A DNA stretch of 10,762 nucleotides from positions 1 through 10,762 of the forward strand of contig JAAEOI010000090.1 of assembly GCA_024244665.1 (NCBI GenBank), read 5' to 3'. Positions within the stretch are counted from its first letter, which is position 1. Each line of letters opens with the position of its first letter. Position numbers and translations under genes: made by a program. The DNA is from Bacteroidota bacterium (lineage in GTDB: Bacteria > Bacteroidota > Bacteroidia > Bacteroidales > GCA-2748055). A model generated the notes under the pieces. That model had not been told where the DNA came from. It searched no databases and saw only the letters and a list, made by a program, of their open reading frames with translations. Shown in pieces: positions 1-10,557 of this stretch.

Positions 1-3000
1 GAATCTTTCACCTGGAAATTCCGAAGAGATCAGGCTAAGGTCAAGCTTGTCCACGCTCATGTAGAAGGGGATTCCCACCTCTGTGATAATTGTATCCTGA
101 CCGCTAATCTCAATTTCAAAATCGCGTGAGGTCAGGCAGTCAAAACCCAGCATAAAGTCATCAATGGTGATCTCTTCACTCCCGGTAAAACTTGTTTCAG
201 GGAAGAACCAGACATCAATATCCTGAAGGTGTTTCCATTCGATGGCGGGATTTTCCCTGTCCCACATCTCAAACACTTCAGCAATGTTTACAATAAGCGA
301 TCCTTTGGAATCTGTGATTGGAATGTCAAACAGCACGGCTGTCCCTTCGGTTCCTTCAGAGGTCACATTCAGGGCCACAGGAATGGAGGTGGTCCCGGCA
401 GGCACAGCATAGGCGAACTCCAAAAGGGGATGGGGGCGCAGGATCATATTGATTCCCTTCAGCTTGAACTTATTTGAAAATGCTGTCCTGCCAGCGGCCG
501 GCCAGATTTTCAAACTATCGCCCACCACCCAGGTGCTGTCCTGGGTCATATATTGTGGTTCCCATATATTTTCATCCCAGGGATCATGGTTGGCATCATC
601 GTCACTCTTGTTGAAATTTTCCAGGTAGGTAAGGGGCAGTTCATTGCCGGTTTTACGGGTGCCGTTGGGCACGAAATGCCAGGTGTCGCCGGTGATAACC
701 GTACTGTCGGTCACTTCGTCCACCCTCCAGAAATAAATTTTCGTGGGATCCAGTTCGCCCGGATTATAGATATTGGTGTTCTGTTCACTCACCAGCGACA
801 TCCCGTCCATTGAGTTTCCCATATAGATCCGGTGTTTTTTGGCTCCCAGCGCCTCCAGCCACATCAGGTCGCAGTCTGCCAGTGCGGTGGCGGTTCCGTT
901 TGGAGGAACCGGCATGGTCGCTTTGTCTGCCCTCCGGCCAGGAAGCCAGTAGATGCTGTCCCCCCACTCATATGCCCCTATATCAATTGAATCACCCATC
1001 CATGTGGTCACAAAGGGTTGAAGATTGTATCCCTGATCCACAAGAGGTGAACCCTCCCGGGGTCTGAAATCCCGGTTATTCGGGTCCCTTAGCACCGTGG
1101 CAATATCGAGCCCGGTGACATAACCGTTCCAATTGTGTCCGCTGTTTCCCGGCAGGGGAAACTCCTCTAAAGTTCTGACCCGGTGTCCCGACATCCGTTC
1201 GGCGGCATTGTTATAGATCCAGCTATCCTCGTTTCCGCCAAAACGTTCATCGGCCAGCACAGTGATATCGCAACGCTTCGCACAATCGAAGAAGGTGTTG
1301 TTCACCACGTTCTGGGAATCGCCCTTGACCTGCAGCCCCTGCCACAGGTTCCAGCCCACGTTGGCAAACATGGTGCCCAGTTTACCGGCAGGCTCCCCGT
1401 CAAAGCGAATCCCTTTGTTTTCCGTATCGTGAAACCAGTTATACCGAAGGGTATCATAGTTCTGGGAGCCAGATTGGACCTGGATGCAGCTGGCATCCGA
1501 TCGGTGGGTGGCCAGGTTGTGCATGTAGTTGAACTCGGCCACAAAGTGACCGTAGGGACTCTTAAAGAATTTGATGCCATTCCCCCTTTCCGAGACGTAA
1601 AAGGTATTGTGTGCAGCGTATCCTCCCCTGCATTTGAAGAATTTGACCATATGGTCGAAGCGGCCGTTGTGGAACAGGGAGTTTACCACCTTGGGACTGT
1701 GGGTGTTGGAGGCGTCGAAGGCCAGTGCGCTTCCATCGAAATTGCTGAACTCACAGTTATATATCCGCACCGAGGAGTTGGTCATGATGTGCGGGGTATA
1801 GAAGAGGGTCCGCGTTTTCAGCATGGCAGGGAAGTAGCTGGGATAATTAAACACACAGCTGTTTACCTGGATGTTCACCGAGTTCTCCACCCTGAAATGG
1901 GTTCCGAAGAAGTGCAGGTTCTCCAGGACCACATGGCTTAAGTTGTTGATCTGCAGGGCCAGGTTCTGGGTTTTCATCCTTAGCTCTTTTTCGCCCGGAT
2001 CCCGGCCATCGGAGGTGTATAGATAGAGTTCGTTGGTCGATGCGTCAAAATACCACTCATCTGCATCGTCGAGGCAGGCCATATGGGCCAGGATATAGTA
2101 GTGCTGTTTACCCAGGGTCAGCAATTCCCCCCGGTTCTTCCCTTCGGTGGCCGAAGAGACAAAAATGTTGTCTCCCGCCTGGTGAGAAGTAATCTCCTCC
2201 AGAACCGTTTCATAGCCCATCTTCAGGGCCACCATAGCTCCGGTGAAGTTGATGCCTGTCCCGCCCAGACTCTGAATTCCCGTGCCCTCACTCCTCCAGG
2301 TCGCTATATCTGAGTCTTCACTCACCTGGGAAAAATCATCCTCCAGGGAGACAAAGGTGGTTCCCATGTCCCAATTGCTTCCCGGCTCCGGTTCACGAGC
2401 TGTATATTCAAAGTTAAAATCATCAGCAAATGTACCCCTGTTATTTGGCCAGCGGGCCACCTTCATCATCTTTCCGTCAAGCCAGACCTGGTGCGCCCCG
2501 TAGTTGATTACCTCGGGATGGGAGATCTTCATTTTCCAGATGTTTCCTTCATGCTGTTCCCAGGTGCCATCTATTACCACAGTTCCATCCAGAATGGCCT
2601 CCTCTCCAGGGTAACTTGTGATGGTCAGGGGTGCCGATTCCCAACCAGAAACTGTGACCATATTCTCCTCGTGATAACGACCCTCCCTTAATATGATTCG
2701 TCCTCCTTCCTCCACAGCGGAGAGTGCTCTCCCGATGGTTTTCAGGGGATTCATCTCCGATCCGTCACTCCCGTCACTCCCGCTGACCGATGAGACATAG
2801 ATTTCGGAACCGTAGGAGGGAAGGGTGGTGTCGGCTTTCTCTATCAAATGGATATTGTCCAGCCAGAAAGTATCCGCGGTGCCGAAATTGAATTTGCATC
2901 CAAAAGTTCCGGTAAGGGGAGAGGTGATACTGTAGCTGTATCTCTGCCAGTCCAGGGAGAGGTTAAAGGACTCTGTATGTCCATCCACCGGTTCATTGGA

Positions 3001-3348
3001 TCCACTGGTCATGGCTGCCGAGAGTTCAGATCCATCGCCTGCCGATTTGGCATAAAAAACCATCTCGTAATCATTTCCCTTAACCACATTAAAATAGGTG
3101 GTCCCTGAGGTCCTCAGCAAACCAAAACCTTCATAAATAATCTGAAGGGCATACTGGCCATCGTATACGTCTGAGGCGGCAGTGTCGGCTGACACGATCC
3201 TGGTGTCCAGGCCATTACGGGAGGACCATTTGCTTTTATCGCCCAGCTCAAATCCACCATTGGGGAATTCCAGGGTCCGGTCCGATGCAAACAGGGCTGC
3301 CGTTGAGAAAATCAGCAGGGTAACAATTGTGATAAGTTCTCTCTTCAT
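1..3348 (-). CDS. Secreted multidomain right-handed beta-helix protein, candidate polysaccharide lyase/glycosidase (partial, C-terminus off window)
   Basis: Translating the minus strand from ATG at 3346-3348 gives 1116 codons with no stop, running off the left edge. Residues 1-21 form a signal peptide (KREL start, hydrophobic core, cleavage near LFA). Residues about 23-175 look like a carbohydrate-binding beta-sandwich (NGGFELG near the start, FWLDNIHLIE at the end). About 177-796 is a parallel beta-helix: it opens with IYVSSVSGSDG and NPLKTI, has LDG and ARWPN (298-302), many Asn/Phe-rich coils, and closes with the typical SPLVDQG...DIGAYEW ending. About 805-895 is a fibronectin-like module (PVPPNG...YFWRVDEV...GDTWHF). 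About 897-1070 is another beta-sandwich ending IDDFMLGF, and an Ig-like module seems to begin near 1077. Beta-helix proteins of this type include PL6-like lyases and GH141-like hydrolases; I cannot place this one in a family or point to catalytic residues. It starts 4 bases after the sulfatase stop, so it is the downstream gene of the operon. A T9SS tail may lie in the missing end. Confidence 0.92.
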   Translation of the reverse strand, partial: MKRELITIVTLLIFSTAALFASDRTLEFPNGGFELGDKSKWSSRNGLDTRIVSADTAASDVYDGQYALQIIYEGFGLLRTSGTTYFNVVKGNDYEMVFYAKSAGDGSELSAAMTSGSNEPVDGHTESFNLSLDWQRYSYSITSPLTGTFGCKFNFGTADTFWLDNIHLIEKADTTLPSYGSEIYVSSVSGSDGSDGSEMNPLKTIGRALSAVEEGGRIILREGRYHEENMVTVSGWESAPLTITSYPGEEAILDGTVVIDGTWEQHEGNIWKMKISHPEVINYGAHQVWLDGKMMKVARWPNNRGTFADDFNFEYTAREPEPGSNWDMGTTFVSLEDDFSQVSEDSDIATWRSEGTGIQSLGGTGINFTGAMVALKMGYETVLEEITSHQAGDNIFVSSATEGKNRGELLTLGKQHYYILAHMACLDDADEWYFDASTNELYLYTSDGRDPGEKELRMKTQNLALQINNLSHVVLENLHFFGTHFRVENSVNIQVNSCVFNYPSYFPAMLKTRTLFYTPHIMTNSSVRIYNCEFSNFDGSALAFDASNTHSPKVVNSLFHNGRFDHMVKFFKCRGGYAAHNTFYVSERGNGIKFFKSPYGHFVAEFNYMHNLATHRSDASCIQVQSGSQNYDTLRYNWFHDTENKGIRFDGEPAGKLGTMFANVGWNLWQGLQVKGDSQNVVNNTFFDCAKRCDITVLADERFGGNEDSWIYNNAAERMSGHRVRTLEEFPLPGNSGHNWNGYVTGLDIATVLRDPNNRDFRPREGSPLVDQGYNLQPFVTTWMGDSIDIGAYEWGDSIYWLPGRRADKATMPVPPNGTATALADCDLMWLEALGAKKHRIYMGNSMDGMSLVSEQNTNIYNPGELDPTKIYFWRVDEVTDSTVITGDTWHFVPNGTRKTGNELPLTYLENFNKSDDDANHDPWDENIWEPQYMTQDSTWVVGDSLKIWPAAGRTAFSNKFKLKGINMILRPHPLLEFAYAVPAGTTSIPVALNVTSEGTEGTAVLFDIPITDSKGSLIVNIAEVFEMWDRENPAIEWKHLQDIDVWFFPETSFTGSEEITIDDFMLGFDCLTSRDFEIEISGQDTIITEVGIPFYMSVDKLDLSLISSEFPGERF

Positions 3349-3352
3349 TGGT

Positions 3353-5593
3353 TCAGTTTCTTATTTGAATTAGTGCCCTGAATAAGCCATCCACCGCAAG
3401 GATATAGGAGCCATCCGGCCAATCAGCCACATCCACCACCTCCAATGGTGAGTGAGTAGTTGCGGCTCGTACGACCATTCCCTTGATATTAAAGATTTTC
3501 AGGGCTGAACCGATCCGGGCCCCTTCAATAAACAGGGTGCCTGAGGCCGGATTGGGATAGATCTTTAATTGCTCCCCGTACTTACCCATCCCGGTTTGGA
3601 TCTCAGACAGGAGATACTCCATGGAGAGGTTCTCTCCCTGGATGGATATGGTATCACTCATGGTTTCATATCCTTCTGCATCAATGGAAATGGTGTATTG
3701 GCCCGATGGTATGCCGGTGGTCTCTATCTTACCTGCTCCGTCTGTGGTATAGGACTGCTCATTCACCCGGACCGTTGCTCCGGGATGGGGGCCAAGGGAA
3801 TTGCTTACCATAACCTCCAGCAGATAGAGCATGGGTGATAGCTGCAGGCTGAAAAGGGTATCGTTTGCCTGCTTATAGTTGGGCCGTGGCTCGATGGTGA
3901 TGGTGCCCGAGTACGGTTCGTAGCCGGTGGCTTCCGCCTGCAGGGTATAGGTGCCTGGCACTACATTATAGATGTTCGCATAGCCATTCTCCGAGATGGC
4001 GTGATCACTGGAATTGTTAAACCGGACATTTCCATGATCAAGTATGGCACCCTCCTGACCGGCCAGCTGAACCACCACTCTTCTATCAATATTCTTCTGG
4101 TCCTTTCCCGGGTAAAGTCCCTCTGAGAAACCGATTGCTCTCATCTCTGCTTCAAGCTTTTCATGCATTTCGCTTGCCACACAGACACAAGAAAGGTCTT
4201 CATAAATACTGTTCATCTCATAGGGGTCATTGACCAGATCATAGAGGTCATATCCCAGAATATCGCCGTTTTTCTTTCCCAGGTATACCAACATTTTATG
4301 CGTTTTGGTCCGAATGCCAATGTGCTTGGGACAGCTGCTGGAATAGAAATGATAGAATGAGGCCTCCCTGAGCGTATCGGGAGTCTGGCCATATACCAGG
4401 TCCCTGAAGCTTATACCCTGCATTTCAGAGGGAATACTTGCTCCCGCCATCTCAAGGAAAGTAGGGGCAAAGTCAACGATATTTACTAGTTCATCAATGA
4501 CTGTATCCCGAGCAATTTTCCCGGGGTAGCTTAGAATAAGGGGCATGCGCAGGGCTTCTTCAAGCCCGAGTCGCTTGTCATAAAAATTATGTTCGCCAAG
4601 GAACATTCCCTGGTCCGATGTGTAAATAATAATGGTATTCTCAAGTATCCCTTCATCTCTTAGTTTGCTAACCATCCGCCCTACATTATCGTCCACGCTT
4701 TTTACACAGCTTAGATAGTCGTGCATGTATTTTTGATAACAGGCTTTCAATATCTCCACATCGCTCATGCCAATGGTATCAATTGAACCGGTCACCCATG
4801 ACGGATCTGCGAAATCCTTTGAGAGGATGTCTTTATTTGTGTTATCGGGATTCAGGTAGTCATGAATTTTATGCTGTTTTTTCAGAACCCCGTTTACATC
4901 ACGATTGGCGTAATCATCCATCAGATTTATCGGTTCCGGAATTTCAATACCTTCCAGGAAGTCCGGATAGGTGATGGTATCATAATGCCAGGGAGCATGG
5001 GTGGCTTTCTGATGTACCATCAGGAAGAAAGGTTGGGCCTTGTCACGGGAATCCAGCCACTCCATGGCCACATCGGTATAGGCATCAGTGGTGTAACCGT
5101 TTCTGCTGAGTTTTCCCTCTTTGGTAGTCATGGTGGGATTCCAGTAACTGCCCTGTCCATGTGTGATGGCATAGTAGTCATAACCCTGAAGGTTATCTCC
5201 TTCTACGTGCCACTTCCCCACAGCAGCGGTACTGTAGCCCGCCTTTTTCAGCTCCTTGGCCAGGGTGGGCAGGTATTCTCCATTCAGATGCTCCCGCAGG
5301 GTATAGACACCATTGTGGTGACTGTACATCCCGGTGATGATCGAAGCCCGGCTTGGAGAACAGAGGGAATTGGTGCAAACCGAGTTGGTGAACATGGCCC
5401 CCTGGGCTGCCAGCTGGTCAATGTGGGGGGTGATATTCAGACTTTTCAACGATTCATTATAAGCCCCGATAGACCTGAATGAATGGTCATCCGACATGAT
5501 GAAGAGGATGTTGGGCGACTCCTGGGCGACCAGGGGGGAGAGGAGGCCAAAGAGAAGAGCCAGTCCGACTATATAGGGTGCAATGAATCTCAT
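3353..5593 (-). CDS. S1-family sulfatase with two regulatory-like domains and a T9SS sorting domain
   Basis: A 746-residue exported sulfatase that should hydrolyse sulfate esters on a glycan. Signal peptide 1-23 (cleavage after LVA). Sulfatase domain about 26-490: metal ligands in SDDH (Asp35, Asp36), formylglycine site C-S-P-S-R with Cys78, GKWH (Lys127, His129), Lys196/His199 in QKATHAP, and TSDQG (Asp327, Gln328). The catalytic set looks complete. Residues about 505-580 and 590-660 are two carboxypeptidase-regulatory-like/Cna-B-type beta-sandwiches (GTYTLQAEATGYEPY; GQYTISIDAEGYETM). Residues about 675-746 match the type A T9SS sorting domain (LKIYPNPASGTLFIEG...NIKG...DGSYIL), so the protein is probably secreted or anchored at the cell surface. 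I chose ATG at 5591-5593 because it begins a normal signal peptide; an in-frame TTG at 5603-5605 directly follows the upstream stop and is less likely. The gap to the upstream gene is 12 bases. The sulfatase part is a close paralogue of the second half of the upstream protein. S1 subfamily and exact substrate are not determined. Confidence 0.95.
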   Translation of the reverse strand: MRFIAPYIVGLALLFGLLSPLVAQESPNILFIMSDDHSFRSIGAYNESLKSLNITPHIDQLAAQGAMFTNSVCTNSLCSPSRASIITGMYSHHNGVYTLREHLNGEYLPTLAKELKKAGYSTAAVGKWHVEGDNLQGYDYYAITHGQGSYWNPTMTTKEGKLSRNGYTTDAYTDVAMEWLDSRDKAQPFFLMVHQKATHAPWHYDTITYPDFLEGIEIPEPINLMDDYANRDVNGVLKKQHKIHDYLNPDNTNKDILSKDFADPSWVTGSIDTIGMSDVEILKACYQKYMHDYLSCVKSVDDNVGRMVSKLRDEGILENTIIIYTSDQGMFLGEHNFYDKRLGLEEALRMPLILSYPGKIARDTVIDELVNIVDFAPTFLEMAGASIPSEMQGISFRDLVYGQTPDTLREASFYHFYSSSCPKHIGIRTKTHKMLVYLGKKNGDILGYDLYDLVNDPYEMNSIYEDLSCVCVASEMHEKLEAEMRAIGFSEGLYPGKDQKNIDRRVVVQLAGQEGAILDHGNVRFNNSSDHAISENGYANIYNVVPGTYTLQAEATGYEPYSGTITIEPRPNYKQANDTLFSLQLSPMLYLLEVMVSNSLGPHPGATVRVNEQSYTTDGAGKIETTGIPSGQYTISIDAEGYETMSDTISIQGENLSMEYLLSEIQTGMGKYGEQLKIYPNPASGTLFIEGARIGSALKIFNIKGMVVRAATTHSPLEVVDVADWPDGSYILAVDGLFRALIQIRN

Positions 5594-5605
5594 AGCTTGA
5601 TACAA

Positions 5606-8584
5606 TTACTGTTTTTGAAGTTTGCCCGGCAACTGTCCGGGTGCAATATCCACGTTTAACAACTCACTGGCGAGCCGTTTTTCCATCTTCTCCTGCAGGA
5701 TGCTGTGTACCGGGTTGCCATACAGGCTGACCAGTTCACGAGGATCTTCAGAAAGATTAAAAAGATCGGCCCCCATCACCTCACCCTCCTTATCCACGTA
5801 TTTCAGCAACTTGTACTCCTTTGTCCGTATTCCATAGTGCTTTGGGGAACCGTTGGAATAGAAGGCGTAAAATGAGGCCAGGCGAGGATTTTCCGGCTCT
5901 TTTCCCCTCAGCACTTCCCTGAAGCTGAAGCCCTGCATCTCTTCCGGTATTTTAATGTTTGCAAAATCGAGCAGGGTGGAGGGGTAGTCCACGTTATTGA
6001 CCAGCTGATCCACCACCATTCCACTCTCTATCTCCCCGGGATAGCGGATCAGGAAGGGCATCTTCATGGCCTCTTCCAGCCCCAGCCGCTTGTCAAAAAA
6101 GTTGTGCTCACCCACATACATTCCCTGGTCCGAGGTGTAGATAATAACCGTATTGTCCAGTTCTCCGGTCTGCTCCAGGTATGCGATAATCCGGCCCACT
6201 CCCTCGTCGATCCCCTTCACACATCGCATGTAGTCTTTGACATATTTCTGGTAGGTGGCCCTGGCCTGCTCCTGATCCGACTTCCCCTCAAGCTGCAGCT
6301 GCCCCGTGGGCCATGCACCCTCCTTCCCCTTCTTGTTGGTCTCGAACCAGTAGGAGAGGGACATCTTGCTTTTCTGTGCATGAATCCTCGCCTGGTTGTT
6401 TTCCACGCCTCCCGGAGCACGGTTTTCATAGCTGTCGAATAGGGTGGGTGGTTCGGGAATGGAATCCGCAGCAAAAAGTTCCTTGTGGCGTTCTGCATAT
6501 TGCCAGGGGCTGTGGGCTGCCTTGTAATGGGTAAAGAGCATGAAGGGGCCCCCTTTTTCTCTCTCCCGAAGCCATTCGATACTTAAATCTGTAATGATGT
6601 CGGTGGAATGGCCCTCCCGCCTTATCTTTCCCTCCCTGGTGTCGAAGGATGGATTGATATAGGCACCCTGACTGCGTGTGACCGCGTAATGGTCAAATCC
6701 ATGGAGGTTGTCGCCATGGATATGCCATTTGCCCACCACGGCGGTCTTGTATCCATGACTGCTGAAAAGTTTTGGCAGGGTGGGGATCCCGGTCGAATTT
6801 AATTCTTCACGCAGGGTGTAGACACCAGACTTATGGCTGTATAAGCCGGTTAATATGGAGGCGCGGCTCGGGGTGCAGAGCGAATTTGTGCAGACTACAT
6901 TGGTGAGCAGCGCTCCCTCTTTGGCCAGCCTGTCGATGTTCGGGGTTTGTACCACATCTTTCAGATGACTTTCATAGGCGCCCACTGCATTGGAAGCGTG
7001 GTCATCGGCCATAATGAAGAGGATGTTTGGCTGCTTGTGTTTTTTACCTGCCTTTTTCCTGTCGCTTTCAGTGAGCCCCGGACCCATGAGGAGGAGGGCA
7101 GAATCGCTCACCAGGCTGTAATCGGACCCTCTTCCGGCCAGTTCGGTATACACCCCGTAGTCTGATCCGGGACGATGGTGTCTTTGCCAATGATCCATCC
7201 ACCCATCGTAGAGGTTTTGCATATTTTCAAGATCGCCATGAAAGTCCGGGTTTACCGCTTCATTGGACAACTCCATCCTGTCTCTTCCCATGTGGTAGAG
7301 TTCTTCCTGCTGCTGGTATCCCTCTGCTCCATAGAACCAGTGAATGTATTTCCACTGTTCGGTAACCACAGCCACCGACTGTGCTGCCCTGGCACCCCAG
7401 GCATTGATCAGGAGTAGAGAAGGGTGAATAGAGGTGGCCTCTCCACTGAGCAGGGGCAGCAGGCTGCGGCCCACCATCTTCTCCGGTATATCGGCTCCTG
7501 CCAGCTCAAGGATGGTGGGTGCAATATCGATGTTTCCGGAGAGTGCTGTAACCACGCTGTTCTCCTGGTTACGGGCCCTGGGATCGAAGTAGAGCAGAGG
7601 TGCCAGTGAGCCCTCTTCATAGGGGTGTAGCTTCCCGCTGAAGCCCTTCACGCCGTTAAAATGGCCGTTATCCGATGTAAAGATGATCACCGTGTTCTCA
7701 TGGATCTGTTGTTTCTCAAGCTCGCTGATGATCGAACCTACGGCAGCATCCATTCCATAGACCATCTGGTGGTAGTTTCTCATGGATGTCTGGTAATCCT
7801 TAAGCCAGCTTTTCCCCTTACTGTAGGGTCTGCCTGCTTTCACATGGGGGGGCAGTGTTTCGACCTCGCCATAGTTTTCGGGTTTATGGAATTCCCACGA
7901 GGCATAGGTGCTGTCATAACGGGGGTCAGTATGATAGGGGGTATGCGGGGCTTTAAAACTGATGGAGAGGCAGAAGGGTTTCTTTTTGTCTGCATATTTT
8001 TTTATGAATGCTTTCCCCATCTCTCCAAGGGCATGGGTGGTGTGCTCCGATCTTGAGCCATGAAGTTTAATATACTCCTCGGCCTCACTGTTTCCGGCCA
8101 TGTCATACTTGCCCTGGCCCAGCCAGCCACACCACCAGTCGAAAGAGCGTTTCACGGTCTCCACCGATCCTTTCCCCCCCGGTTCGTCCACCCTGAAGCC
8201 AAATTTCCCCGCGAAGCCCGTGGTATAACCACTCTGTTTCAACAGGAATGGATAGGACTGCTCCCATAATTCGTGGGCCAGATTGTCCCGGTCGAAATTA
8301 CATCCCGTGGAGAATTCATAGAGGCCGGTCATGTACTGTGCCCTGCTTGCCATGCAGATGGCCGTGGTATTATAGAACCTCGTGAACCTGAAGCCTTTGT
8401 CAGCAATCCGGTCGAGATTCGGGGTCTTCATATCGGAACGGCCATAGGCTCCTATCCCGTCGAAGATGAGGTCGTCGGCCAGAATAAAGATGATATTGGG
8501 TTTCCCGGTTTCCCTGGCTGCTGCCGGATTGCTGCAGAGCAGAATTACAGCAAACAGGATGGTCCATATTTTAAAGCGTTTCAT
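5606..8584 (-). CDS. Double-headed sulfatase: two S1-family sulfatase domains in one exported protein
   Basis: A 992-residue protein, about twice the usual sulfatase length, with one signal peptide (1-23, cleavage after PAAA) and two sulfatase domains. Domain 1 (about 28-480) has ADD metal ligands (Asp37, Asp38), the formylglycine site C-M-A-S-R with Cys77, KAPHTP (Lys211, His214) and TSDNGH (Asp305, Asn306). Its third motif position is Ala79 rather than the common Pro, and the usual GKWH is GKFG (Lys127), so that His is missing. Domain 2 (about 518-985) has ADDH (Asp527, Asp528), C-T-P-S-R with Cys570, GKWH (Lys619, His621), KAAHSP (Lys688, His691) and TSDQG (Asp819, Gln820). The linker, about 485-517, is short, basic and polar after a small hydrophobic run. 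Domain 2 is closely similar to the next gene's sulfatase; domain 1 is distant from both. The two heads probably remove different sulfate groups from the same glycan, in the periplasm as there is no T9SS tail. It starts 6 bases after the fucosidase stop. CxAxR-type sulfatases are known and can be matured, so domain 1 is likely active, but this is inferred. Confidence 0.94.
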   Translation of the reverse strand: MKRFKIWTILFAVILLCSNPAAARETGKPNIIFILADDLIFDGIGAYGRSDMKTPNLDRIADKGFRFTRFYNTTAICMASRAQYMTGLYEFSTGCNFDRDNLAHELWEQSYPFLLKQSGYTTGFAGKFGFRVDEPGGKGSVETVKRSFDWWCGWLGQGKYDMAGNSEAEEYIKLHGSRSEHTTHALGEMGKAFIKKYADKKKPFCLSISFKAPHTPYHTDPRYDSTYASWEFHKPENYGEVETLPPHVKAGRPYSKGKSWLKDYQTSMRNYHQMVYGMDAAVGSIISELEKQQIHENTVIIFTSDNGHFNGVKGFSGKLHPYEEGSLAPLLYFDPRARNQENSVVTALSGNIDIAPTILELAGADIPEKMVGRSLLPLLSGEATSIHPSLLLINAWGARAAQSVAVVTEQWKYIHWFYGAEGYQQQEELYHMGRDRMELSNEAVNPDFHGDLENMQNLYDGWMDHWQRHHRPGSDYGVYTELAGRGSDYSLVSDSALLLMGPGLTESDRKKAGKKHKQPNILFIMADDHASNAVGAYESHLKDVVQTPNIDRLAKEGALLTNVVCTNSLCTPSRASILTGLYSHKSGVYTLREELNSTGIPTLPKLFSSHGYKTAVVGKWHIHGDNLHGFDHYAVTRSQGAYINPSFDTREGKIRREGHSTDIITDLSIEWLREREKGGPFMLFTHYKAAHSPWQYAERHKELFAADSIPEPPTLFDSYENRAPGGVENNQARIHAQKSKMSLSYWFETNKKGKEGAWPTGQLQLEGKSDQEQARATYQKYVKDYMRCVKGIDEGVGRIIAYLEQTGELDNTVIIYTSDQGMYVGEHNFFDKRLGLEEAMKMPFLIRYPGEIESGMVVDQLVNNVDYPSTLLDFANIKIPEEMQGFSFREVLRGKEPENPRLASFYAFYSNGSPKHYGIRTKEYKLLKYVDKEGEVMGADLFNLSEDPRELVSLYGNPVHSILQEKMEKRLASELLNVDIAPGQLPGKLQKQ

Positions 8585-8590
8585 GGGGGA

Positions 8591-10429
8591 TCATAAAACA
8601 GGTTCAAATGTCAGGATCTCCAGTGTAATGCCCAGGGACATGTATTTCCGGTCCTGCTTGTTAAACTCCTCCAGGGTGGGTTTAAATTCGAAGGTCTCCC
8701 CCTGTTCCAGTAAAAGTTCGTATTTGCCGGCTTCCTCAAACTCCATCATGCCGGCCATGAGGGTAAAACCACCATTCTTTGATTTATCCTTCTCCATCTC
8801 CAGGGCTTCATTTCCATCAAATTGGTACCGGGCCTTCTGGTTTTCCGCACTCTTATGGTTATAGAGATCAAAAGAGATGGCCTGGTCACCTGCCGACAGG
8901 ATAAATCTTTTCTGGTCGTGTTTCATCTTATAGTCCAGCTGCAGCTCGTATTTCCCGGGTTCGGGGATCTCAATGGTTACGGTCCTGTAGGAGTCCTTCA
9001 GGATCGACCTGTAGCTCACTTTTCCGTACTTCCCGTGCTTGATCCAATCACTTTCACCAATCCTGATTTTTCCGGATTCATCGGCTTTCAGAACCGGATC
9101 ATTGATCACCAGTTCATCTTCGTATTCAAGCACCAGGATGGTCAGGTAGGGATCTCTCCACTGCTCCTTCAGGGCCAGTGATTTTCCCTCTTCGATATTC
9201 CCCACTTCAATTGCCTGATCCGGATAGGCCAGGGGATAGGCTCGCTTAACACCACTCACCAGGCCCGGTATTTCAAGCCTTCCATTGTCCGGCCAGTTGG
9301 AGACATGGATGTAGAGCTTTCCAGGCTTCACGGTAGACTCCCCCCAGGGTGATTTTTCAAATGGGGTAGTCTCAGCGCCAAATATGGCTTCTTCATTCTT
9401 TTTTACCCAGTGACCCATCTCGGTCAGGACCTCCACTTCGTAAGGAACCACGGTTCCGTCACTGCGGGGTCCGATGTTGAGTAAAAAATTTCCGCCTCTG
9501 GCTGCAATAAGCGAGAGCTTGTGGATCTGTTTTTTAACCTGTACCGGCAGCGTATCACCTTTCACCCAGGATTTGTATCCCCAGGTGTGGTAGAAGGTTC
9601 CGGGCGTTTCCCAGGCCAGATCCTCAATAGGAAGATCCGGCACATGGTTGTCCGGCATGGTCAAAAAGTCACCCTGGTTATTCATGATGCGGCCGTTGAT
9701 CACGCAGCCCGGTTGAAGTGAATGGACCGTCTGTGCCCAGCGGGCACTCTGTTCGGCGGTGGGTTCTCCCATATCAAAGAAGAGCTCCACGATATCGCCG
9801 TAGTTACTCAGAAGCTCTTTTAGATGCGCATCCTGGTAGTCCTCGCTGGCTTTGGATACTTTAGAGAATACGGATATTTTCCCGTCTGCCGGATTGATCT
9901 CCGGATTGGGGCCATTAAAGTGCCAGTCGGGGGTGGAGTAGTAGAGGCCAAGCTTAATTCCGTGTTTCCGGCAGGTTTCTGCAAGCTGAGCAATGATATC
10001 CTTCTTATAGGGGGTGAAATCCACAATATCAAAATCGGTGTGCTTGGAATCCCACATACAAAATCCATCATGGTGTTTGGATGTGATCACGATGTATTTC
10101 ATGCCGGTGTTCTTGGCCAGCAGCACGATTTTCTCAGGATCGAAGTTTACCGGATTAAATTGCCTGGCTACCTCCTGGTAATCTTCATGGGATATGCGGG
10201 CATGGCGTTGAATCTGTTCGCCCAGCTTTTCTATCTGCTTCCCGTCCCACATTCCGGCCGGACCTGAATAGACTCCCCAGTGAATGAACATTCCAAATTT
10301 CATCTCTTTCCACTGCTGAAGGGCAGCTGCCCTGCTCTTGTTTTCGTTCTCAACCCTTTCCACGGGCTTACATCCTAGCGTTACAAGCAGAAGGATTAAT
10401 ACCAGTCTGCTTATTGTTTTCATGATCAT
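8591..10429 (-). CDS. GH29 alpha-L-fucosidase, probable lipoprotein
   Basis: Hydrolyses terminal alpha-L-fucose from a glycan by the retaining GH29 mechanism. Family hallmarks in the 612-residue product: KFGMFIHWGVYSGPAGMW (44-61), KYIVITSKHHDGFCMWDS (111-128), GLYYSTPDWH (161-170), and FFDMG, whose Asp219 aligns with the family nucleophile. RGGNFLLNIGPRSDG (311-325) and HWVKKNEEAIFG (340-351) mark the end of the barrel. The acid/base residue is not assignable by eye. Residues 365-440 fit the usual C-terminal beta-sandwich, and about 455-612 is a further beta-rich region longer than in minimal GH29 enzymes, perhaps a binding module. The N-terminus has a hydrophobic run ending TLGC (Cys20), a near-match to a lipobox, so it is probably lipidated; acidic residues follow (ERVENEN). 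The start is ATG 10427-10429; ATG 10421-10423 is equally plausible (two residues shorter). The longest possible frame begins at 10510 but would put 27 non-signal-like residues before the hydrophobic segment. No clear Shine-Dalgarno is seen, as is common in Bacteroidota. First gene of the tight cluster. Confidence 0.95.
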   Translation of the reverse strand: MIMKTISRLVLILLLVTLGCKPVERVENENKSRAAALQQWKEMKFGMFIHWGVYSGPAGMWDGKQIEKLGEQIQRHARISHEDYQEVARQFNPVNFDPEKIVLLAKNTGMKYIVITSKHHDGFCMWDSKHTDFDIVDFTPYKKDIIAQLAETCRKHGIKLGLYYSTPDWHFNGPNPEINPADGKISVFSKVSKASEDYQDAHLKELLSNYGDIVELFFDMGEPTAEQSARWAQTVHSLQPGCVINGRIMNNQGDFLTMPDNHVPDLPIEDLAWETPGTFYHTWGYKSWVKGDTLPVQVKKQIHKLSLIAARGGNFLLNIGPRSDGTVVPYEVEVLTEMGHWVKKNEEAIFGAETTPFEKSPWGESTVKPGKLYIHVSNWPDNGRLEIPGLVSGVKRAYPLAYPDQAIEVGNIEEGKSLALKEQWRDPYLTILVLEYEDELVINDPVLKADESGKIRIGESDWIKHGKYGKVSYRSILKDSYRTVTIEIPEPGKYELQLDYKMKHDQKRFILSAGDQAISFDLYNHKSAENQKARYQFDGNEALEMEKDKSKNGGFTLMAGMMEFEEAGKYELLLEQGETFEFKPTLEEFNKQDRKYMSLGITLEILTFEPVL

Positions 10430-10454
10430 GTGCTTTTGATTCATATAAATTGGT

Positions 10455-10460
10455 ATTATA
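10455..10460 (-). promoter_or_regulatory. Possible -10 element upstream of the fucosidase operon
   Basis: On the minus strand this reads TATAAT, inside the 10-base palindrome ATTATATAAT (10455-10464). It lies about 26 bases before the ATG at 10429. I see no good -35 hexamer at the right spacing and no match to the Bacteroidota -33 TTTG / -7 TAnnTTTG pattern. In AT-rich spacer DNA such a hexamer can occur by chance. The position is reasonable because this is the only gap in the cluster long enough to hold a promoter. Confidence 0.2.
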
Positions 10461-10557
10461 TAATGCATCATTGCAGTTCTTCCGTTACGAGATTGCAATT
10501 GAAGTAACATTAGTTAATAATACTTTGACCTGAACAGGGTTTAATGATACAAATAGA

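Follow-up and report, generated by a model that had tools for sequence, protein, structure and literature searches.

One reading frame for two unlike sulfatases: an S1_25-like/S1_11-like fusion from a Bacteroidota bacterium

A single gene from a Bacteroidota bacterium encodes two unlike sulfatases in one polypeptide. The gene occupies positions 5606–8584 of a 10,762-nucleotide stretch of DNA (contig JAAEOI010000090.1 of assembly GCA_024244665.1; hereafter the window), on the minus strand like every window feature located below, and runs from an ATG through 992 residues free of internal stops. Pfam finds two PF00884 stretches in the product (whole-protein E value 9.8e-103) and two of PF16347. 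Motif search places formylglycine motifs in both halves, CMASR at Cys77 in head 1 (8342–8356) and CTPSR at Cys570 in head 2 (6863–6877); both halves also carry the metal Asp pair, Lys, His and Asp-Asn/Gln motifs, and each combines PF00884 with the C-x-[PA]-x-R signature of S1 formylglycine sulfatases. The heads share 27% identity. A first-pass annotation had proposed this architecture, and its two domains in one frame, two distinct sites and two unlike heads were all borne out. We read the product as one exported, probably periplasmic chain whose two exo-sulfatase heads act in order on the same oligosaccharide, a reading to which we give a little short of an even chance. The bacterium probably feeds on sulfated sugars, and the order in which such sugars lose their sulfates is known for few substrates.

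Head 1 resembles the S1_25 type, as judged by Pfam, structure-database match and tree. It spans about residues 27–445 (7250–8506), and its closest solved relative is the S1_25 enzyme 6hr5 (E value 4.3e-61; next best 5e-44). Alignment of Lys127-Phe-Gly129 (8198–8206), part of GKFG at 126–129, puts Gly where the catalytic HisA stands, a replacement (KFG/KYG) reported as typical of S1_25 (PMC6315715). Known members of the subfamily are described as exo-3-O-sulfatases of fucose or rhamnose, and 3-O-sulfatase activity is predicted for head 1. In a 103-row tree, a strong branch separates head 1 from the S1_25-GH78 rows.

Head 2 resembles the S1_11 type. It covers residues 519–992 (5609–7030; Pfam, structure-database match). 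By sequence its closest solved relatives are S1_11 enzymes, with 5g2v ranking first and 7lha third, and 9s03 between them. By structure, BT4656 and BuS1_11 stand among the top rows with the S1_25 enzyme 6hr5 close behind, in a match list that bears on head 2 and hardly covers head 1. Recognition in S1_11 is ascribed to a triad of His and an Asp/Arg pair (PMC10154612). Candidates for all three are present: Asp831-Lys832-Arg833 (6086–6094) is the probable Asp/Arg pair flanking the catalytic Lys, and His916 (5837–5839) aligns as the probable recognition His. Asp831 and Arg833 probably pair with D361 and R363 of BT4656. The alignment from which the head-2 columns were read placed single head-1 enzymes over head 2, and was used for those columns only and not for the fold. 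Described S1_11 members are 6-O-sulfatases that read O3, and head 2 is predicted to be a 6-O-sulfatase.

The fusion is genuine and recurs in close relatives. A database search returned five further full-length fused proteins (P0002–P0006), 65–86% identical to the window protein, on different contigs from three sources; in all of them the domains stand in the order seen here, both active sites are present and the junction is partly shared. Relatives thus do not always encode the domains as separate genes, the finding that would have counted against the first-pass reading. All six proteins keep the motif Cys, and key motif residues of both sites are invariant among them, as are Met500-Gly501, Glu506, Arg509 and Lys510 at the junction. 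Comparison with one fused locus (L001, 74% identical protein) gave differences of 0.21, 0.13 and 0.59 per first, second and third codon position over the open reading frame, and 0.35, 0.27 and 0.65 over residues 451–518. By this measure, the junction keeps a coding pattern and is under weaker constraint than the frame as a whole.

The chain appears to be exported through one signal segment. Residues 1–26 (8507–8584) form the strongest hydrophobic leader, by eye without a lipobox: the 11-residue Kyte-Doolittle maximum is 2.92 there, 1.6 across residues 470–518 before head 2, and −1.24 from Met500 to 518. Separate domain-2 genes of three relatives have hydrophobic N-termini of their own (maxima 2.12–2.96). 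On hydropathy, then, the single signal peptide suggested at first pass is borne out, and nothing indicates that domain 2 is exported on its own, there being no comparable signal segment before head 2. The tail of head 1 instead runs straight into the mature start of head 2 (residues 446–518; 7031–7249) in the alignment. Met500 (7085–7087), proposed as a possible internal start, has a counterpart in the C-terminal tail of first-domain enzymes: all 13 aligned rows (six fused, three split and four single proteins of our choosing) show a Met there. The 15 bases before it are pyrimidine-rich, although Bacteroidota may not need a purine-rich site before a start codon. As far as sequence can tell, and with no leader following it either, we rejected an internal restart and regard Met500 as an ordinary tail residue. 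Since Pfam finds a type IX secretion system (T9SS) sorting tail only on the sulfatase of the next gene, the fusion would be periplasmic and that sulfatase at the surface. AlphaFold2, run on 14 sequences, gave a mean predicted local distance difference test score (pLDDT) of 74.0 and a predicted template modelling score of 0.53, and does not inform the mutual orientation of the heads; 151 residues fell below a pLDDT of 50, including 501–516 at the junction and eleven other segments. Eight of the 14 rows are single head-2 relatives, so the fold of head 1 rests on six.

Split relatives point to how the fusion arose. Genomes yielded seven loci encoding a relative. L001 carries the fusion, whereas L002 (a Bacteroidales locus), L003 (Labilibacter sediminis) and L004 (Carboxylicivirga marina) encode the two domains in two separate neighbouring genes that point the same way and keep the order of the fusion, spaced from a 1-base overlap to 11 bases. 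L005, L006 and L007 have a head-2 relative (40–52% identity) and no head-1 relative above about 28% over the full domain. In trees of each domain the six fused proteins form one group (support 100/98 and 100/99), within which P0006 is the earliest branch each time. Next to this group come the split pairs, a placement with lower support: 91/92 for the split group in the head-1 tree, which includes P0007, and 89/88 for the joint fused and split group in the head-2 tree. Both trees are consistent with one fusion event. On the simplest reading, the last part of gene 1, its stop codon and the signal segment of gene 2 were lost together in a single deletion. An older fusion that later split would seem a less simple course, since a new signal segment would have to be gained. 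Tandem duplication was rejected as the origin of the two heads, given their low mutual identity and the closer kinship of each with separate relatives. Together, the natural fusion and its split sister form allow a like-for-like comparison of whether tethering imposes an order on two desulfations or makes them faster.

Genome scans at E ≤ 1e-140 added no new genome. G003, which has a split pair, was the one match among 393 genomes of its order; its family gave 2 of 71 (G003 and G004), and the family that G002 shares with G001, which carries a fused gene, gave 2 of 28. In viral contigs, 45 stretches fitted a pattern and none was confirmed. With at most 22 candidates scored per genome, the matches listed for the 71 family genomes include 11 S1_25-like ones in six genomes. 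Near three of those 11 listed matches, at a distance of up to 350 bases, there is an S1_11-like match, in two cases arranged as in the window and in the third (G386) reversed. Adjacency of the two types therefore recurs, yet is not the rule. The reversed arrangement is found at G002:C272 (L027) and G386:C1. Both split genes of L002 (700–2334 and 2338–3861) have Ser for the motif Cys (SMASR and SAPSR), which presumably points to a radical-type, anaerobic maturase.

The two predicted activities suggest a stepwise mechanism. Both cysteines would be converted to formylglycine. Head 1 would take the 3-O-sulfate off an L-fucose, L-rhamnose or similar sugar at the chain terminus; head 2 would then take a 6-O-sulfate, probably from an L-galactose or glucosamine-type residue with O3 free; and the GH29 protein encoded next door (8591–10510) would afterwards cleave off the bared sugar. 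If both heads work on one terminal residue, head 1 must precede head 2, because S1_11 needs a free O3 and S1_25 frees it. We infer that 3-O desulfation precedes 6-O desulfation, either within one sugar or along the same chain; the heads may act on neighbouring sulfates, as suggested at first pass. The tether would keep consecutive enzymes together and supply them by one export event in equal amounts. The fixed 1:1 ratio of heads proposed at first pass depends on a chain that is not cleaved and on maturation of both cysteines.

The substrate is probably a sulfated glycan containing fucose or L-galactose. This assignment follows from the adjoining GH29 gene and from the surroundings of the G003 split pair, which sits among SusC/SusD pairs, a GH141_M-containing protein, a GH29 protein and several sulfatases. 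Sulfated fucose, the substrate first suggested, is reasonable for head 1. Fucose has no 6-OH, however, and head 2 resembles 6-O-sulfatases, so a different sugar is expected as its target. Two observations weigh against the overall reading: on the open side of its contig the G001 fused gene is flanked by a 287-residue protein that Pfam does not match and one carrying DUF4861, and the DUF1565 protein of the window is only weakly similar to a GH141 protein (30% over 142 residues, E value 8e-06).

Ordered action on one oligosaccharide competes with several other explanations. A possible one, which we take seriously while thinking it somewhat improbable, is that each head has its own target residue within one heteropolysaccharide, for instance 3-sulfated fucose for one and 6-sulfated L-galactose or galactose for the other. 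They would take turns with a glycosidase and keep no strict order on a single sugar. The neighbouring GH29 gene suits it, described members of both subfamilies work from the chain end, and one sugar cannot be both fucose and 6-sulfated; nothing speaks directly against it, the enzymology being the same minus the single-residue order. Unlikely, if still a live prospect, is a neutral fusion, in which a small deletion within a tight operon joined co-exported enzymes and the product was then kept without catalytic benefit. Genes in the window lie 0 to 6 bases apart, the split genes are at most 11 bases apart, and similar fusions arose several times, all of which fits; yet both heads, their motifs and several junction residues persist in six of six proteins down to 65% identity.

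The other two explanations fare worse. That one head is a non-catalytic binding module seems very improbable. A distant double sulfatase, P0217, does lack the motif Arg in its first half, but in the window protein sulfate-site motifs stand in both heads, with key residues invariant across all six fusions, and the Gly that replaces HisA in head 1 is also reported from the active enzyme SWF4 (PMC6315715). A sequencing or assembly artefact has practically no chance of being right, even though the window protein itself is listed on one contig only: five fused proteins come from separate contigs, coding-type differences run through the junction, and no signal segment comparable to those of the split genes is left before head 2. 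The independent homologues and the third-position excess through the junction exclude a missed stop or a single bad assembly for practical purposes.

Two-sulfatase proteins are already in print, and the rarity claimed for them at first pass was overstated, as further examples found here also show. Kim et al. (2016, PMC4807772) describe a gene with two unrelated sulfatase domains in Planctomycetes P1 and P2 and ascribe it to fusion of adjacent genes. The window gene is of the same kind, since it too unites unlike sulfatase domains from neighbouring genes; the likeness is one of architecture and carries no claim of orthology. The Planctomycetes protein joins an arylsulfatase-A-like head to an iduronate-2/choline-sulfatase-like one, and the text describing it gives neither a split precursor nor a mechanism. 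The SulfAtlas authors split proteins with several formylglycine-sulfatase modules for classification, naming no subfamily pair in the passages concerned (PMC5066984), and fusions of sulfatases with glycoside hydrolases are mentioned elsewhere (PMC6388578). In P36 of Formosa agariphila (PDB 6hr5; PMC8511951), an S1_25 domain is likewise fused to the enzyme of the next step on the same oligosaccharide, but that partner is a GH78 rhamnosidase and not a second sulfatase. SWF4 of Wenyingzhuangia fucanilytica, an S1_25 fucan exo-3-O-sulfatase, shares KFG in place of HisA with head 1 and differs in being a single domain (PMC6315715). BT4656 and BuS1_11 (PDB 5g2v, 7lha and 7lj2; PMC10154612, PMC9096561) match head 2 in fold, catalytic set and probable recognition residues at 37–38% identity, and are described as single-domain enzymes. 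A literature search to which subscription papers were mostly inaccessible returned no account of S1_25 fused to S1_11 or of sulfatases fusing to one another repeatedly. What is new is the pairing of S1_25 with S1_11, the sister form in which the two are split, and some six or seven independent fusions of S1_25-like domains to other sulfatases; the surprise is moderate because the kind of protein is known.

S1_25-like domains appear to have fused to other sulfatases more than once. Searching with head 1 only among long proteins (0.55 to 1.75 times 992 residues; 7996 candidates scored) returned 115 proteins at E ≤ 1e-60, and given this restriction the share of fusions is not a frequency. Among 227 collected proteins whose architecture was checked, 28 have at least 800 residues, and 17 of these have sulfatase matches in both halves. 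An S1_25-like half was called in 15 of the 17: the six of window type and P0009, P0126, P0128, P0129, P0130, P0139, P0211, P0214 and P0217. In these nine other doubles the S1_25-like half is 31–44% identical to head 1 and carries GK[FYL]G in eight cases; Pfam finds two PF00884 stretches in all eight that were scanned (P0130 lay outside the scan). Their partner halves fall into five groups, 23–38% identical between groups. The best match of one group is the S1_16 sulfatase 9fo1 (E value 6.9e-113 for P0128). This S1_16-like partner follows the S1_25-like half in P0128 and P0130 and precedes it in P0129, whose partner is 81–82% identical to theirs. The S1_25-like halves of P0128 and P0130 carry CMACR.

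On the 103-row tree the double label takes seven changes, at least six of them forced by well-supported branches, which suggests roughly six or seven separate fusions, some of which may instead be losses. The tree was made by a quick method with no bootstrap from a sample biased to long proteins, mostly metagenomic records, and omits P0137, P0145, P0165, P0171, P0174, P0184, P0188, P0192, P0196, P0215, P0216, P0218, P0220, P0221, P0225 and P0227. P0217 sits on a long branch, and the loss of Arg from its first-half motif (C-R-P-S-L) indicates that its first head may be inactive. A doubtful proposal is that S1_25-type 3-O-sulfatases are a repeated fusion hub, as 3-O removal would unlock the next desulfation on the same terminal sugar. 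If true, their partners would be specific for other positions, with an S1_11-like head for 6-O in the window protein, an S1_16-like head probably for 4-O elsewhere and further heads without an assignment, and a two-headed protein would record which sulfates co-occur on one residue, here a 3,6-disulfated L-galactose-like cap. Whichever head is paired with an S1_25-like one gives a cheap clue to co-occurring sulfates. P0010 and P0216 are further double sulfatases without a clear S1_25-like half; the C-terminal half of P0010 is S1_11-related and groups with L006 and L007.

The fused gene is one of four large genes in the window, all on the minus strand. Upstream lies the GH29 alpha-L-fucosidase family gene, identified by Pfam and structure-database match. 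The next gene (3353–5605) encodes, by Pfam, an S1_11-like sulfatase with a carboxypeptidase-regulatory/PEGA domain and the T9SS tail; if it begins at ATG 5593, as it perhaps does, one intergenic gap widens to 12 bases. Its sulfatase is 49% identical to head 2 and falls in one clade with it, and a 79% identical copy stands directly behind the fused gene in L001. Last comes the gene for the DUF1565-containing protein (1–3348; Pfam), cut by the window edge, whose open-ended 1116-residue product resembles xylosidase 3vst and a GH141 protein only weakly. PDB entries 9s03, the second-best match of head 2, and 9rzy, the best of the GH29 protein, have near-consecutive codes and perhaps belong to one deposition series; the literature search returned no paper naming 9s03, 9rzy, 9rzx, 9s8y or 9s7x. 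The longest contig listed is 6837 for both P0006 and P0008.
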